Assembly: GCA_022487185.1 (NCBI GenBank) | Contig: JAKVJE010000007.1 | Span: forward strand, 1-41,088 | Direction of reading: 5' to 3' | DNA: 41,088 nucleotides | Source of the DNA: Microbacteriaceae bacterium | GTDB lineage: Bacteria; Actinomycetota; Actinomycetes; Actinomycetales; Microbacteriaceae | Shown: positions 5,660 through 39,300 of the stretch, one piece after another | Layout: each line of letters starts with the position of its first letter | Position numbering within the stretch: position 1 is the first letter of the stretch | Position numbers and translations under genes: made by a program | Notes under the pieces: model-generated | Told to the model about the DNA's origin: nothing | Database searches by the model: none | Seen by the model: the letters and a program-made list of their open reading frames with translations, nothing else

Positions 5660-6202
5660 TCTCGAGGACCGGAGACCCTCGCAGAGACGGCTGGGCAGAT
5701 TGGCGGCGACACGGTCCCGGTCACGGCAGCACATGCCGTCGCCGACAGCGAGGTCGTGGTGATTGCGATTCCGTTGTCACATCGCTCGCAGTTGACACAT
5801 CTTCCGTTTCAAAAGGATCAAATCGTCGTTGACGCGATGAACTACTACCCGGATCGGGATGGGCAGATCGCAGAGCTGGATGAGCATCGAACCACCACCA
5901 GCGAGATCACTCGGGCGCTGCTTCCAGAGGTTCGTCTCGTCAAAACCTTTAACTCGATTTATGCGGCGGACGTCGTGAAGTGTGCCCGGCCGTCCGGCGC
6001 CCCCGATCGGAGTGTGTTGCCGCTTGCCGGTGATGACTCGACGGCAAAGTCCGTCGTCGCGGGGCTCATCGATGAGATCGGATATGACCCGCTCGATCTT
6101 GGGGGGCTTGCTGAGGGGTTCCGGTTCCAGAACGGGACGCCTGCGTACTGCGTGCGCGGTTCGGAGGAGGTGCTCCGTCCGTTGCTCGCAGAGGCACATT
6201 GA
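5660..6202 (+). pseudogene. NADPH-dependent F420 reductase-like protein, 5'-truncated remnant
   Basis: In-frame LISNSRGPETLAETAGQIGGDTVPVTAAHAVADSEVVVIAIPLSH...VDAMNYYPDRDG...VKTFNSI; the GxGxxG nucleotide-binding N-terminus is missing. Confidence 0.7.
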
Positions 6203-28640: not shown

Positions 28641-30092
28641 TCAGGCTTCGTCCAGGTTGTAGATGTCGGAGTTCTTGGTCTCCTTGGTGAGCAGCAGGGC
28701 CACCAGGGTGATCAGCGACATGGCCACGAGGTACATGCCCACCCAGACGGTGCTGCCGTTGCCCAGACCCCACAGCCACACGGCGATGAGCGGGGCGATG
28801 GCGGCACCGAGGATGGAACTGATGTTGTAGGCGAAGGCCGAGCCGGTGTACCGGGTGTTCGTGGGGAACATCTCGGGCAGGAGTGCACCCATCGGGCCGA
28901 AGGTGAAGCCCATGAGGGTGAAGCCGATGACCAGGAAGGCCATGGTCATGGCGCCGCTGAACTTCGGGTCACCGCTCTGGTTCAGGAACAGCGGGAAGGC
29001 GCATCCGAAGGCGATGATGGCGACGGTGGTCCAGAGCACCAGCCACTTGCGACCGATCTTGTCAGCCAGCGGGCCGCTGATGAGCGTGAAGACACCGAAG
29101 AAAACGATGCTGACGCACATGAGCAGCACGAAGTCGGTGTACTTGAAGCCGAGGCCGGGCACGAAGGTGGAGGCGTCGAATGCCTTTCCGGCCTTCGCCG
29201 CTGAGGCGGCTGCATCCTTGGCGCTTGCTGCGGTGGTGCCGTAGGTCAGGGAGAATGTGGTCATCAGGTAGAAGAGCACGTAGGTGGCGAGCATCGCGAA
29301 GGTACCGAGGATGAGCTCGCGCCAGTTCTTGTGGAAGGCCTCGGCCAGTGGCATGCGCTTGACGGCGCCGTGAGCCTTGGCAGCCCGGAAGCTGTTGGAC
29401 TCGACCAGGTGCATCCGAACCCACAGTCCGATGATGACCATCACCGCGCTGAACAGGAAGGGGATGCGCCAGCCGTAGGCGAGGAACTCGGCGGAACGGG
29501 CGGTGGCGTCCTCATGGTTGGGAAGCAGGAAGTTGATGGCCAGGAACAGGCCGTTTGCGATGATGAAGCCGATGGGGGCACCGACCTGGGGGAAGGTGCC
29601 GAACCAGGCCCGCTTGCCCTTCGGTGCGTTCTCCGTGGCCACCAGTGCGGCGCCGGACCACTCACCACCGAGGGCGAACCCCTGGCAGAGACGCAGCAGG
29701 AGCAGCAGCACGGGGGCGAGCATCCCGACCACCTGGTAGGTGGGGAGCAGACCGATGAGGAAGGTCGCGATCCCCATGGTGAGCAGGCTGGCGATCAGTG
29801 TGGTCTTGCGACCGTGCTTGTCCCCCATGTGGCCGAAGAGCATGGCGCCGAAGGGACGGGCCAGCATGGCTGCGCCGAAGGTGGCGAAGGAGGCCACCAT
29901 CGCGGTGCGCGGGTCGGCAGCGGGGAAGAAGAGCGCCGGGAACACGAGCACCGCGGCCGTGGCATACACATAAAAGTCGTAGAACTCAATTGTGGTGCCG
30001 ATCAAGCTGGCCAGCACCACCCGGCTGGTTGGGTTCGCGGGTTTGGACATCTCGACGGATGTTGGGTTTGGAGCGGCAAGTGTCGCAGACAT
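28641..30092 (-). CDS. MFS transporter, metabolite:H+ symporter (MHS) family
   Basis: VVLASLIGTTIEFYDFYVYATAAVLVFPALFFP...GAMLFGHMGDKHGRKTTL...RLCQGFALGGEWSGAALVATENAPKGKRAWFG. Confidence 0.92.
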   Translation of the reverse strand: MSATLAAPNPTSVEMSKPANPTSRVVLASLIGTTIEFYDFYVYATAAVLVFPALFFPAADPRTAMVASFATFGAAMLARPFGAMLFGHMGDKHGRKTTLIASLLTMGIATFLIGLLPTYQVVGMLAPVLLLLLRLCQGFALGGEWSGAALVATENAPKGKRAWFGTFPQVGAPIGFIIANGLFLAINFLLPNHEDATARSAEFLAYGWRIPFLFSAVMVIIGLWVRMHLVESNSFRAAKAHGAVKRMPLAEAFHKNWRELILGTFAMLATYVLFYLMTTFSLTYGTTAASAKDAAASAAKAGKAFDASTFVPGLGFKYTDFVLLMCVSIVFFGVFTLISGPLADKIGRKWLVLWTTVAIIAFGCAFPLFLNQSGDPKFSGAMTMAFLVIGFTLMGFTFGPMGALLPEMFPTNTRYTGSAFAYNISSILGAAIAPLIAVWLWGLGNGSTVWVGMYLVAMSLITLVALLLTKETKNSDIYNLDEA

Positions 30093-30318
30093 GATGAATC
30101 TCCGATGTGAACAGGATGATCTGAAGTGATGAGATCGGCCGAACGCGTGGTCGGCAGGCACCGGAACAATCGAGGGTGGTGATCATTCCCTTGGGTGCGG
30201 GAGAAGCAGTGCGCACTTGTGATGCGACGTGCATACAGCGTAGCGATGTTTCGCTGAGGTTTCAAGGGGATGTTTGCTCCCTGTGAGCTGGGTGCGGTCC
30301 TGGAGCCGTTTCGGCGGT

Positions 30319-30348: not shown

Positions 30349-30378
30349 GAGCGAACACCCGATACGAGGAGTACACAG

Positions 30379-30453
30379 ATGGCGCAGCACATGACCGGAC
30401 GCCCGGCGTCCGCTGCTGCCCGCTTCTCCGGCACCGTCCTACTAGTGCGCTAG
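30379..30453 (+). CDS. leuL: Leucine leader peptide MAQHMTGRPASAAARFSGTVLLVR
   Basis: 24-codon ORF with GAGGAG SD 7 nt upstream; tandem rare CTA CTA Leu codons flanked by Val near its end; lies inside the attenuator. Confidence 0.8.
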   Translation: MAQHMTGRPASAAARFSGTVLLVR

Positions 30454-30544
30454 TAGGACTCCTTTCGAGTCCTTCCTGAATGGGGACTCGATCGGCGGCA
30501 ACACCCCATTCGCCCACCGGCATGGGGTGTTTTTTGTTGCCGCC
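30436..30544 (+). promoter_or_regulatory. Transcription attenuator of leuBCD
   Basis: Stem 30436-30445/30450-30459 (perfect 10 bp); 30455-30461/30467-30473; 30467-30472/30484-30489; antiterminator GAATGGGG 30478-30485 / CCCCATTC 30504-30511; terminator AACACCCCAT 30500-30509 / ATGGGGTGTT 30522-30531. Confidence 0.82.
30500..30535 (+). terminator. Attenuator intrinsic terminator
   Basis: AACACCCCAT...ATGGGGTGTTTTTT. Confidence 0.85.
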
Positions 30545-30561
30545 GAAGAAAGGAATCGGCG

Positions 30562-31641
30562 GTGTCTACACGGATCGTCACACTTCCCGGAGACGGGATC
30601 GGGCCAGAGATTATGGAGGCGGGCCTCCGAGTACTCGCGGCCGCGGCCCAGCAGGGCGGGTTCGAGTACTCAGCGGATGAGCATCCGTTCGGGGGCGCTG
30701 GCATCGACGCGTGCGGGTCCCCGTACCCTGAGGCGACTCGCGTCGCCGTCCATGAGGCGGATGCGGTGCTCCTGGCGGCCATCGGGGGTCCCGCCTGGGA
30801 CGATGCCCCCGATCGCCCTGAGGCGGGCCTGCTGCGCATGCGCCAAGATCTGGGGTTGTTCGCGAATCTCCGCCCCACGAGGGTGACCGCGGCCCGGGCG
30901 GGGCGGAGCCCGCTGCGGCCCGAGATCGTGGCCGGGGCGGATTTCGTGATCGTGCGGGAGCTCACCGGCGGGATCTATTTCGGGCAGCCGCGCCGCCTGG
31001 GCGACGATGAGGCCTTCGACACGATGCGCTACCGCCGCGACGAGATTGAGCGGATTGCCCGGGTGGCCTTCGAGACGGCCCGGACCCGCCGAGGCCGGGT
31101 CACCCTGGTCGACAAGGCCAACGTACTGGCCAGCAGCAAGCTGTGGCGGCGAGTCGTCGGCGAGGTGGCCGTGGAGTACCCCGACGTGCATCAGGACGCC
31201 ATGTATGTGGATGCGGCCGCCATGAAGCTGGTCTCCGACCCCCGCCGCTTCGATGTGATCCTCACCGAGAACCTGTTCGGCGACATCCTGAGCGATGAGG
31301 CGGCCGAGATCACCGGGTCCCTGGGGACCATCCCCTCGCAGAGCCGGGGGGCATCGGGGCCGGCGGTGTACGAGCCCATCCACGGATCTGCCCCGGACAT
31401 CGCGGGTCAGGGCATCGCCGACCCGATCTCGATGATCGCTTCCGTCTCGCTCATGTTGCGCGGGAGCGTCGGCCGGGCCGATGTGGCCGACCGGATCGAC
31501 GCGGCCGTCGACGCGGCCGTGTCCGCAGGGGAGATCACCCCGGATTTGGGCGGGACCGCGACCACGACCGAGGCGACTGACGCCATCATCCGCCATCTCA
31601 GCACCGAGTTCTCGAAGGGAGCCCACGATGACCAGCACTGA
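30562..31641 (+). CDS. leuB: 3-isopropylmalate dehydrogenase
   Basis: [21 protein letters not shown]...[13 protein letters not shown]...[20 protein letters not shown]...[26 protein letters not shown] start. Confidence 0.93.
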
Positions 31642-33094
31642 ACACCGTATCCACCCCGCACAGGCTGCGCCCACGGCCGATCCGGACCGGGGGCGCACCC
31701 TCTTCGACCGCCTGTGGGCCGAACATGTCGTGGCCGGGGAGCCGGGGGAGCCGCAGCTGCTCTACGTCGACCTGCATCTGGTGCACGAGGTGACCAGTCC
31801 GCAGGCCTTCCAGGGGCTGCGGGATGCCGGGCGCCGCGTGCGCCGCCCGGACCGGACCTTCGCGACGATGGACCACAATGTACCCACGGATGGCGCAGAG
31901 GAGATCTCCGACCCGATCGCGCGGCTGCAGATCGAGACGCTGCGTCGCAACACCGAGGAATTCGGCATCCGCCTGGCGGGGATGGGGGACGAGCGCCAGG
32001 GCATCGTGCACGTGATCGGGCCCCAGCTGGGACTCACCCAGCCGGGCATGGTGATCGTCTGCGGCGACTCGCACACGGCCACCCACGGGGCGTTCGGGTC
32101 GATCGCCTTCGGCATCGGCACCAGCGAGGTGGAGCACGTCCTCGCCACCCAGACGGTGTGGCAGATGAAGCCGCGTACCCTGGGCGTGCACGTCCACGGC
32201 ATCCTCTCCGAGGGGGTGACGGCAAAGGATGTGATACTCGCCATCATCGCGCGGGAGGGGACCTCCTTCGGCACCGGCTGCGCGGTCGAGTTCTTCGGTG
32301 ACGTCATCCGGGCGCTGCCGATGGAGGAGCGGATGACCATCTGCAACATGGCCATCGAGGGCGGCGCCAAGATGGGGCTCATCGCCCCGGACGAGACCAC
32401 CTTCGCCTACGTCGCCGGGCGCGAATATGCCCCGGAGGACATGGAGGCCGCCGTCTCGCACTGGCGCACCCTCTCGACTGACAGTCCGGAGGCCTTCGAC
32501 CGGGTCATCGACTTCGATGTGACCGGCCTCGCCCCGATGGTCACCTGGGGCACCAACCCGGGCATGGCCGTGCAGGTGGGGGAGGAGATGCCCGACCCGA
32601 CCGGCCCGGATGACGCCGAGGCCTACGCCTACACGGGTCTGCACCCGGGGATGCGTCCCGAGGAGATCCCCATCACCTACGCGTTCTTCGGATCGTGTAC
32701 GAACGGCCGGCTCTCCGACCTGGAGGCCGCCGCGGCCGTGCTGCGCGGGCAGCATGTGGCCCGGGGAGTCACCGCGTTGGTGGTTCCCGGCTCCCGTCAG
32801 GTGAAACGCGCCGCGGAGGCGGCCGGCCTGGATGCCGTCTTCCGGGAGGCCGGCTGCGAGTGGCGCGATCCGGGCTGCTCGGCGTGCCTGGGGATGAACG
32901 CCGATCAGATTCCGGCCGGTGAGCACTGCGCATCCACCTCGAACCGCAATTTCAAGGGCCGGCAGGGTGTCGGCTCCCGCACACACCTGGCGAGTCCGGC
33001 GATGGTCGCCGCCGCTGCGGTGCACGGCCACTTCATCGATATCCGCCCGACGGCTCAGAACTTCGGGGCCGTTTCTCCTCAGGAGGCCCGCTGA
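31628..33094 (+). CDS. leuC: 3-isopropylmalate dehydratase large subunit
   Basis: [12 protein letters not shown]...[22 protein letters not shown]...[33 protein letters not shown]...[31 protein letters not shown]. Confidence 0.97.
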
Positions 33095-33684
33095 TGCAGC
33101 CCATCTCAGTCATTTCCGGCACGAGCGCCCCGCTCATGCGCGACAACATCGATACCGACCAGATCATCCCGAAGCAGTTCCTGAAGCGGATCGGCAAGAC
33201 CGGCTACGGTGCCGACCTGTTCCACGACTGGCGGGGGGACCCTGAGTTCGTGCTCAACCGTCCGGAGCGGCAGGGGGCGAAGATTCTCGTCGCCGGCGAG
33301 AACTTCGGGTGTGGCTCCTCCCGGGAGCATGCAGTCTGGGCCCTGCACGACTTCGGGTTCGAGGCGGTGATCGCCGGAGGATTCAGCGACATCTTTGCGA
33401 TGAACTGTCTCAAGAACGGGGTGCTCGCAGTGACCTTGCCCCGTGCCGAGCGGGAGGCCCTCGCCGAGCTGCCCGCGGATGCCCAGATCACCATCGATCT
33501 GTCGGCCCAGCGGGTCTCATCCGCTGCCGGTGAGGCGGGCTTCGAGATAGAGCCGATCTGGAAGCAGCGCCTCCTGGAAGGGCTGGACGATATTGCGGCC
33601 ACGCTGCGCATGGAGGAGCGAATCACCAAGTATGAGTCCCGTATGCCCGTGTACCGGACCCACCGCGAGGGGGTGGGAGCATGA
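33094..33684 (+). CDS. leuD: 3-isopropylmalate dehydratase small subunit
   Basis: RDNIDTDQIIPKQFLKRIGKTGYGADLFHDWR...GENFGCGSSREHAVWAL. Confidence 0.97.
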   Translation: MQPISVISGTSAPLMRDNIDTDQIIPKQFLKRIGKTGYGADLFHDWRGDPEFVLNRPERQGAKILVAGENFGCGSSREHAVWALHDFGFEAVIAGGFSDIFAMNCLKNGVLAVTLPRAEREALAELPADAQITIDLSAQRVSSAAGEAGFEIEPIWKQRLLEGLDDIAATLRMEERITKYESRMPVYRTHREGVGA

Positions 33685-34991
33685 CCGCCATCGCAGCGGC
33701 GCCGTCGGCGGCGGGCAGGCACCTGATCGGGCGGCTGGATCGCACTCGGGAGACGCCGATGTTCTTCAAGGTCTTCGCCCTGGTCTCCGCCGGCATGATG
33801 CTGGATGCGATCGACGTGTATATGGCCAGTGCGGTGGCGAGCGCCTCCCTGAAGAGTGGCTGGTCCACGCTGGCACAGAACTCCTGGTTCCTGTCTGCGG
33901 GCTTCGCGGGGCTGTTTGCGGGGTCGCTGCTCGCCGGATTCATCGGAGATCTGTGGGGGCGCCGGGCCGCGTATCAGGTGAATCTGCTTCTGTTCGGCGG
34001 GTTCACCCTGCTGGGGGCGTTCGCCCCGAACATGACGGTGCTGGCCCTGCTGCGCTTCGGCGCGGGGGTGGGGCTGGGAGCTGAGATCGTCACCGGCTAT
34101 TCGATGGTGAACGAGTTTGCCCCGGTGCGCCGCCGGGGGCGCTGGTGCGCTCTTACTTCAGTGATCGCAAACTGCGGGGCCCCCATTGCGCTGCTGCTGT
34201 GCAGTGCGATCATCCCCCGCTACGGATGGCGGGTGATGTTCATCGGTGTGGGTATTCTGGCGGCCCTGCTTTGGGTGCTCCGACGGGATATCCCGGAGTC
34301 CCCTCGCTGGCAGATCGTGCACGGCCAGGAGGAACGGGCCGCCGCGACGATTGCGCTGCTGGAGCAGAACGGAACGGATCCTGAACCGGAGCGGGTTCCG
34401 CGGGCCGCATCCACCTCCCGGTCGTTCCTGATCGGGCTGATGGTGGCGACGGTGGCAGTTTCGGCGACGATCGTGTGCCAGTACACCTTCACCTCGTGGG
34501 TGCCGACCCTGCTGGTGAAGCGGGGCATCGATATCAGCGGTTCGCTGTGGCTGAGCACGCTCATGATGCTGGGAGCCCCGGTGGGGTGCATCCTGGGCGC
34601 GGTGCTGGTGGATCGCATCGGCCGGCGCCGCACCATCGTCCCGGCCTTCGTCCTGACCGCGGTGTTCGGGGTGCTCTACGCGCTCCAGGCCTCCCAGCTG
34701 GGTGCGGTGCTGGTGGGGTTCTGCCTGACCACCTGCTTCTATGTGTTGATGGCGAGCGTGGTGGCGGTGTACGCGGCGGAGTTGTTCCCCACCGGCGTGC
34801 GCTTCCGCGGTGTGGGGGTGGCCAATGCGGTGGCGAAGCTGCTGACGGTCGTGATGCCGCTGGTGGTGGCCTGGGCGCTCACGGTGTCGGGCCCCTGGGT
34901 GGTGTTCGCCGGCATCAGCGTCATCGCCCTCGTCGCGGGGGCAGTGGTGTGGATCTGGGGCCCCGAGACGAGCCGCAGATCCCTCGGATGA
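33681..34991 (+). CDS. MFS transporter (AAHS/sugar-transporter-like)
   Basis: AGMMLDAIDVYMASAVASASLKSGWST...GFIGDLWGRRAAYQVNLLLFGGFTLLGAF; 4-nt overlap with leuD. Confidence 0.9.
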   Translation: MTAIAAAPSAAGRHLIGRLDRTRETPMFFKVFALVSAGMMLDAIDVYMASAVASASLKSGWSTLAQNSWFLSAGFAGLFAGSLLAGFIGDLWGRRAAYQVNLLLFGGFTLLGAFAPNMTVLALLRFGAGVGLGAEIVTGYSMVNEFAPVRRRGRWCALTSVIANCGAPIALLLCSAIIPRYGWRVMFIGVGILAALLWVLRRDIPESPRWQIVHGQEERAAATIALLEQNGTDPEPERVPRAASTSRSFLIGLMVATVAVSATIVCQYTFTSWVPTLLVKRGIDISGSLWLSTLMMLGAPVGCILGAVLVDRIGRRRTIVPAFVLTAVFGVLYALQASQLGAVLVGFCLTTCFYVLMASVVAVYAAELFPTGVRFRGVGVANAVAKLLTVVMPLVVAWALTVSGPWVVFAGISVIALVAGAVVWIWGPETSRRSLG

Positions 34992-38891: not shown

Positions 38892-38938
38892 GTTCCCTCC
38901 TCCGTGCACGGGGAGGGGGCTCGCGGGCGCGAGCCTGA

Positions 38939-39059
38939 TCGTGTTGCTTCCATCCGGACTTTGACCGTCGGTTCTGGAGTTTCACCAGATCAGCCACCCT
39001 GGTGGGTGGGTCGCGGACTGTGACCGCCGGCTCGGATTTTCACCGACCCCGTAACACGA
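38939..39059 (-). ncRNA. FMN riboswitch (RFN element)
   Basis: Minus strand TCGTGTTACGGGGTCGGTGAAAATCCGAGCCGGCGGTCACAGTCCGCGACCC...CTGGTGAAACTCCAGAACCGACGGTCAAAGTCCGGATGGAAGCAACACGA; P1 TCGTGTT/AACACGA. Confidence 0.97.
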
Positions 39060-39300
39060 ATACTTCCCTCAGTATAGGCACGCGGTGCGGCCTCGGTGTT
39101 CTCGGTGAGCGGACGCGGTATCCGCGGCTGTTGCGGCCGCCCGCGCCAGCAGCTCCGGGGGATGCGGGGGCGCTGCCGGAGCGGTGGATGCGGTTGCGAC
39201 GGCTGCGCGCGCCTCCTGTGGAGAACCTCTCGCCCGGGCCCGGACCGGGGTTCAATATCGGCACATTCCGTGTCCGACACATCCGCTTCCGGGAGGGGCC

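Follow-up and report, generated by a model that had tools for sequence, protein, structure and literature searches.

A putative leucine attenuator upstream of leuBCD in an actinobacterium, very probably homologous to a family of Lactobacillaceae leaders

Introduction

The attenuator of the his operon is built of six RNA segments, A to F, which pair either as A:B/C:D/E:F or as B:C/D:E. In the leu leader of Salmonella, CUA codons act as the control codons (PMC1183508). Ribosome-mediated attenuators with experimental support have also been described for ilvD, both in Listeria (Rli60; PMC5864092) and in Staphylococcus aureus (PMC5794164). In Actinobacteria, an element termed LEU is found before leuA; it forms a pseudoknot whose base stem joins Leu codons to the leuA Shine-Dalgarno (SD) sequence, and it lacks a terminator (PMC1262725). 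Whether attenuators are transferred between phyla or originate anew has been raised and left open (PMC2965389).

Here, we analyze a locus upstream of leuBCD in a Microbacteriaceae bacterium. The window, i.e. the whole stretch of DNA considered (41,088 nt), is an entire contig of a 1.29-Mb, 65-contig, 84% complete genome. We conclude that the locus is very probably a ribosome-mediated, leucine-sensing attenuator of leuBCD and an adjoining MFS gene, homologous to a family in Lactobacillaceae and most likely acquired with the operon from there.

Results

Leader ORF and control codons

The original prediction called for a 24-amino-acid leader with tandem CTA CTA codons, and such an ORF is indeed present. 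It runs from an ATG at 30379 to a TAG ending at 30453 (+ strand), encodes MAQHMTGRPASAAARFSGTVLLVR, and is preceded by an SD-like GAGGAG (30366-30371, +) positioned 7 nt before the ATG. Directly after the stop lies another in-frame TAG (30454-30456). The peptide ends in VLLVR, with its two Leu codons (CTA CTA, 30439-30444, +) two codons before the stop and flanked by GTC and GTG. CTA is a rare codon in this organism, accounting for 1/299 Leu codons in eight genes of the window and 43/3465 in eight stretches elsewhere in the genome (0.3-1.2% across both counts). Given this rarity, chance is a poor explanation for CTA CTA in an ORF of just 24 codons. At the level of sequence, then, the locus contains a short ORF, a predicted ribosome-binding site and tandem codons for the product of the operon.

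Alternative pairings and terminator

Six segments were delineated in the leader RNA (all + strand). Segment A (GTCCTACTAG, 30436-30445) pairs with nucleotides 30450-30459 of segment B (CTAGTAGGACTC, 30450-30461), giving exactly the predicted 10-bp hairpin (-14.5 kcal/mol). The AGGACTC of B (30455-30461) can also pair with segment C (TCGAGTCCT, 30465-30473), for which segment D (GAATGGGGACTCGA, 30478-30491) is the other possible partner. D contains both GGACTCGA, complementary to C, and GAATGGGG (30478-30485), complementary to the CCCCATTC (30504-30511) of segment E (AACACCCCATTC, 30500-30511). E is thus the 3' arm of an antiterminator as well as the 5' arm of a terminator, the 3' arm of which is segment F (ATGGGGTGTT, 30522-30531), with a U6 tract at 30530-30535. 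Each short element named in the original prediction was found precisely where expected: GGACTC at 30456-30461 and 30484-30489, GAGTCC at 30467-30472, and the complementary pair in D and E. Two details required revision. The pairings proposed for GAGTCC exist but are longer than claimed, with 7 bp in B:C and 8 bp in C:D (TCGAGTCC/GGACTCGA); and there is a U-tract terminator, the stem proper of which is 30500-30509/30522-30531.

This intrinsic terminator (10 bp, -13.4 kcal/mol, U6) lies between the leader and the first structural gene, 26 nt before the GTG of leuB. A simple consensus scan missed it because the scan limited loops to 8. A perfect 9-bp inverted repeat, GGCGGCAAC/GTTGCCGCC (30494-30502/30536-30544), encloses the terminator and its U-tract, and could form in readthrough RNA beside the leuB SD.

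The region 30379-30544 is more stably folded than its shuffles (MFE z-score of -6.4). Moreover, a chain of three overlapping 7-bp stems was recovered in 0/5000 dinucleotide shuffles of the region, and across both strands of the 41-kb window it appears only in tiles over the leader locus.

Dependence of folding on ribosome position

Constrained partition functions were calculated with masking of all RNA as far as the edge of the ribosome, which was set at +15 relative to the P site. With either the first or second CTA in the A site and the RNA end at 30516-30524, pairing probabilities are 0.86-0.98 for B:C and 0.84-0.996 for D:E. When the ribosome has advanced by one more codon, has reached the stop, or is missing altogether, C:D is at least 0.96 and D:E at most 0.002; GTG in the A site likewise gives C:D. 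One caveat here is that, with the upstream RNA free to fold, D:E reaches only 0.09-0.47 in the stalled state, and is near zero in the other states. When the upstream RNA is masked, C:D is more stable than B:C until E appears, and once F has been made, E:F wins at equilibrium in all ribosome states. These observations imply that the decision must be kinetic. In silico, then, constrained folding and the covariation of homologs (below) point to an exclusive antiterminator dependent on ribosome position, and the stalling logic originally put forward is borne out, with a sharp switch between the second CTA and later positions.

The mechanism envisaged is of a known kind, ribosome-mediated attenuation. 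Pairings A:B/C:D/E:F would correspond to termination and B:C/D:E to antitermination, as seen in silico. In the presence of charged tRNA-Leu, the ribosome would pass CTA CTA to the stop and cover B, allowing C:D and E:F to form and RNA polymerase to halt at the U-tract. In leucine shortage, a ribosome stalled on a CTA would open A:B and leave B free; B would then take C, D would capture E ahead of the synthesis of F, and transcription would continue into the operon. Were the leader untranslated, A:B would protect B, and termination would be the default.

The downstream operon and its ancestry

The first gene of the operon, leuB (30562-31641, +), encodes a Lactobacillaceae-like 3-isopropylmalate dehydrogenase (TIGR00169) and has a GTG start codon with an SD sequence, AAGGA, at 30550-30554. 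It is followed by leuC (31625-33094, +; start about 31625-31690), leuD (33094-33684, +) and an MFS transporter gene (33681-34991, +), the ATG of which overlaps the leuD stop. On the other side, the leader adjoins a divergent gene for an MHS-type metabolite/H+ symporter (28641-30095, -).

We compared LeuB across 400 genomes of the family and found a protein this similar (E 1e-90) in just one, the window's own, and in none of the 399 others. The usual LeuB of the family is 34-46% identical to that of the window. The best relatives (56-64% identity) come from Lactobacillaceae, where the loci have leuB-leuC-leuD in the same order as the window and many carry the same MFS gene (56-70% identity). 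In a LeuB tree, the window protein is sister to the Lactobacillaceae branch with an SH-aLRT of 95, in a tree made by a quick method and with a long end branch (0.42) for the window. The leuBCD-MFS operon is, judging from these comparisons, foreign to its actinobacterial family, and this distribution is what suggests both the donor lineage and which way the transfer went. In Lactobacillaceae, homologs of the MFS gene are found after leuD or (L123, L132) directly behind the same attenuator, and the protein encoded at 33681-34991 is probably a leucine-pathway transporter.

Neither LeuA_dimer (PF08502) nor HMGL-like (PF00682) matches were found in the genome, though ilvB, leuB, leuC and leuD are present. 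The genome may have truly lost leuA, or the gene may simply be missing from the assembly (84% complete). Inspection by eye of the region preceding ilvB in this genome revealed no leader carrying tandem codons for branched-chain amino acids.

A family of related leaders in Lactobacillaceae

At the gathering score, Rfam (including Leu_leader and T-box) gave only one match in the whole window, an FMN riboswitch located elsewhere (RF00050, 94.7 bits, 38938-39060, -). At E<=1 there was no relevant match at the locus, and for the homologs, too, neither cut-off gave a described Rfam family.

Upstream of leuB (L033, L040-L043) or, at most other loci, leuA, Lactobacillaceae have a short ORF that ends in Leu codons at the stop. 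The ORF is followed, in order, by AGGACTC, GAGTCCT, AATGGGGCT(C/T), C(A)CCCCATT and a U-tract terminator. Homologs linked to leuB are L033, L040-L043, L105, L107, L110, L114, L118, L127 and L128. The original prediction held placement before leuB to be noteworthy; the placement is real but not unusual among Lactobacillaceae attenuators. Across the Lactobacillaceae homologs, the leader ORF, Leu codons and both folds are kept, with covariation, the opposite of the outcome named originally as a refutation. Other genes behind the homologs are leuA and MFS genes (L123, L132), with ABC binding proteins for weaker matches (names assigned by sequence reading).

Because MAFFT misaligned segment B (short loop) when the window was included, we built a covariance model from 17 Lactobacillaceae homologs with the window left out. 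Against the 41-kb window, the model gave a sole match, at 30439-30537, which is weak (20.0 bits; E 0.011, or E 0.33 genome-wide). Among Lactobacillaceae, the element was detected in 68/331 genomes (E<=1e-5), often twice. Weaker matches (E<=1e-3) were obtained in 121/400 Lactobacillales, and those leaders examined resemble ilv leaders. In 385 other Actinomycetes, the model found nothing convincing; two matches score 19.8 and 18.1 bits, about the same as the window itself, and no score in this search, that of the window included, rises above chance level.

A more direct comparison used 30 distinct segment sets from real homologs, each scored against the 300 nt before leuB. The median was 4 mismatches. 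For the best set (L130), there was 1 mismatch in 33 positions (32/33), compared to 6 mismatches (27) for the best of 1000 shuffles, each scored over all sets. Segments B, C, D and E are thus present in the window in the order of the family, and the element lies directly upstream of leuB, one of the gene contexts (leuA, leuB or a leucine-linked MFS) in which family members occur.

The leader peptide is less conserved. In Lactobacillaceae, 55/62 counted leaders end in ALLL, with the last three codons mostly CTA and TTA. The window leader does not have three Leu codons abutting the stop, nor do 7/62 of the leaders end in ALLL; L132, before an MFS gene, ends in VLLV, akin to the VLLVR of the window. 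On account of this leader end, we class the window element as a homolog that has diverged, and not as a typical family member. The geometry is nonetheless similar. In homologs, no gap separates the final Leu codon from the stop, and the stop in turn mostly precedes AGGA by 3 nt. This places the ends of Leu codons one and two (out of three) at 12 and 9 nt before B, compared to 13 and 10 nt for the CTA codons of the window. These distances indicate that the stall sites have been kept within 1 nt despite the different peptide.

The A:B hairpin has no equivalent of this size in the family, as complementarity at the corresponding position never exceeds 5 bases in any homolog. By this comparison, A:B looks like a local addition of the actinobacterium. 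Without a ribosome, most homologs pair B with C; some of those in Liquorilactobacillus instead pair B upstream, the probable partner being GGAGTCCTC in the SD region of the leader. Segment B (AGGACTC) of L044-L046 and L048 has its complement, GGAGTCCTC, in the leader SD region, and the leader's own ribosome-binding site may, from this complementarity, act as the protector.

Among the weaker matches, L145-L162 are attenuator-like; the Lactobacillaceae genes behind them encode LivJ-like and other ABC binding proteins, and a wider leucine attenuation regulon, absent from Rfam, is possible. L143 and L149 have leaders ending in AVILI before a gene for an ABC amino-acid binding protein, and such leaders may, going by their codons, sense Ile/Val besides Leu. 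We also considered a T-box remnant from Lactobacillaceae and rejected it: none was found upstream of leuB or leuA in the five loci scanned, and the T-box of L032 lies downstream, at 6113.

Covariation in both folds

To 74 distinct homologs, aligned to a model holding only B:C and E:F, we applied pairing tests for each of the two exclusive folds. For B:C plus D:E, 96.9% of cells are paired, compared to 29-52% in slid controls, and 10 pairs show two-sided changes. For C:D plus E:F, the corresponding values are 94.3%, 28-48% and 12 pairs. By stem, two-sided changes occur in 4/10 pairs of B:C, 6/8 of D:E, 3/7 of C:D and 9/10 of E:F. As D:E and C:D are absent from the model, their covariation cannot be attributed to fitting; the homologs are related, and hence the cells are not independent events. 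Where column 81 (C) has A in place of G, columns 33 (B) and 117 (D) both have U in place of C. Such a three-way change is what the exchange model demands. Covariation across homologous leaders, one of the checks suggested originally, is therefore evident in both exclusive folds, three-way changes included.

Discussion

These data argue for a ribosome-mediated leucine attenuator related to those of Lactobacillaceae. Most likely, attenuator and operon entered the actinobacterium together, and there, as the comparison with homologs suggests, the leader peptide was rewritten and the 10-bp protector hairpin arose. The homology to Lactobacillaceae leaders, their joint occurrence with leuBCD-MFS, and the role of A:B as protector of B are all points that the original prediction missed.

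An attenuator that works as described could have arisen independently in the actinobacterium, with the shared segments being convergent or forced by pairing. Attenuators are short and re-evolve easily, as has been discussed (PMC2965389), the covariance-model match is weak, and the leader peptide, loops and A:B hairpin are unlike those of homologs. Pairing, however, demands only complementarity, not identical letters, and a single mismatch in 33 ordered segment bases separates the window from a real homolog, when shuffles do no better than 6. The same operon lies downstream with the same gene order, and its LeuB groups with Lactobacillaceae, all of which makes separate origin very improbable. 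We regard it as even less probable that the contig is mis-binned, such that the window lies outside the actinobacterial genome and no transfer into the family took place. The genome is indeed a draft of 65 contigs, but the GC content and tetranucleotide profile of the window agree with the other contigs (r 0.89-0.96 to its own genome's contigs, compared to r <=0.86 for ten other genomes). Moreover, window GC is 0.65-0.69 versus 0.3-0.5 for homolog leaders in Lactobacillaceae, such that some high-GC host would be required in any case.

Homology granted, the leader might still be a relic, with the operon transcribed mainly by default, the leader insensitive to leucine, or the terminator merely setting a constant level. 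The greater stability of C:D than B:C in the window, and the loss of the B:C extensions seen in homologs, fit such a scenario. We consider it quite unlikely, as no pairing contains a mismatch in this GC-rich genome, rare CTA codons have been kept against a strong codon bias, the ORF is intact and has an SD, and the stall geometry, with Leu codons 9-13 nt ahead of B, is within 1 nt of that in homologs. Also conceivable is a different signal: valine as well as leucine, given the V-L-L-V of the leader with GTC and GTG beside the CTA codons, or a bound protein, as in an actinobacterial LEU-type element of the sort known before leuA (PMC1262725). Yet, under constrained folding, no position other than the two CTA codons yields the antiterminator, and C:D forms when GTG occupies the A site; and a terminator is present, and the Leu codons do not pair with the leuB SD, unlike in the LEU element. 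The chance that another signal is sensed strikes us as slim indeed.

Our preferred reading, an attenuator acquired along with its operon, is of interest as sequence-level evidence for cross-phylum transfer of an attenuator, from a family of low-GC Bacillota to a high-GC actinobacterium. Ribosome-dependent attenuators are short, evolve fast, and are tuned to the translation and transcription of their host. The letters of the switch have nevertheless stayed almost unchanged in a genome of 65-68% GC, before the same operon, even as the peptide changed and a protector hairpin was gained. The locus thus offers a natural experiment in what an attenuator needs to retain after moving to another host. 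For Rfam, the Lactobacillales family is a candidate entry; it also ties an uncharacterized MFS transporter to leucine metabolism. A further idea, which we think rather unlikely, is that leuBCD-MFS, in a genome that shows ilvB but neither leuA nor an HMGL-domain synthase, is a scavenging module, in which the MFS protein would import 2-isopropylmalate (or a related substrate of leuBCD) from other microbes and the attenuator would adjust how much leucine is made from it. If so, the cassette and its RNA switch would form a self-regulated unit able to cross phyla.

How does the locus compare with the systems described? Like the window locus, the LEU element is actinobacterial and places a small ORF containing Leu codons ahead of a leucine gene. 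Identity with it was rejected: the Leu codons of the window pair with a segment after the stop, a terminator is present, and the gene is leuB. The enterobacterial leu/his attenuators share the six-segment logic and, in Salmonella leu, the CUA codons, but the operon there is leuABCD and the window locus has no Rfam match. Compared by description rather than alignment, the ilvD attenuators of Listeria and S. aureus similarly have a short leader rich in branched-chain codons, alternative hairpins and a terminator before the operon; they differ in using Ile and Leu codons and in the gene, ilvD. For the Lactobacillaceae leuA/leuB element, we found no description in the literature searched, which covered few subscription journals, and we do not claim that it is undescribed. 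Compared with these Lactobacillaceae attenuators, the window leader ends in VLLVR rather than ALLL, has an extra A:B hairpin over its Leu codons, resides in a GC-rich host, and forms B:C without the GACA/TGTC and AAC/GTT extensions. What the two have in common is a short leader with Leu codons towards its end, the ordered series AGGACTC, CGAGTCCT, GAATGGGG, C(A)CCCCATTC and a U-tract terminator, and the same operon downstream.
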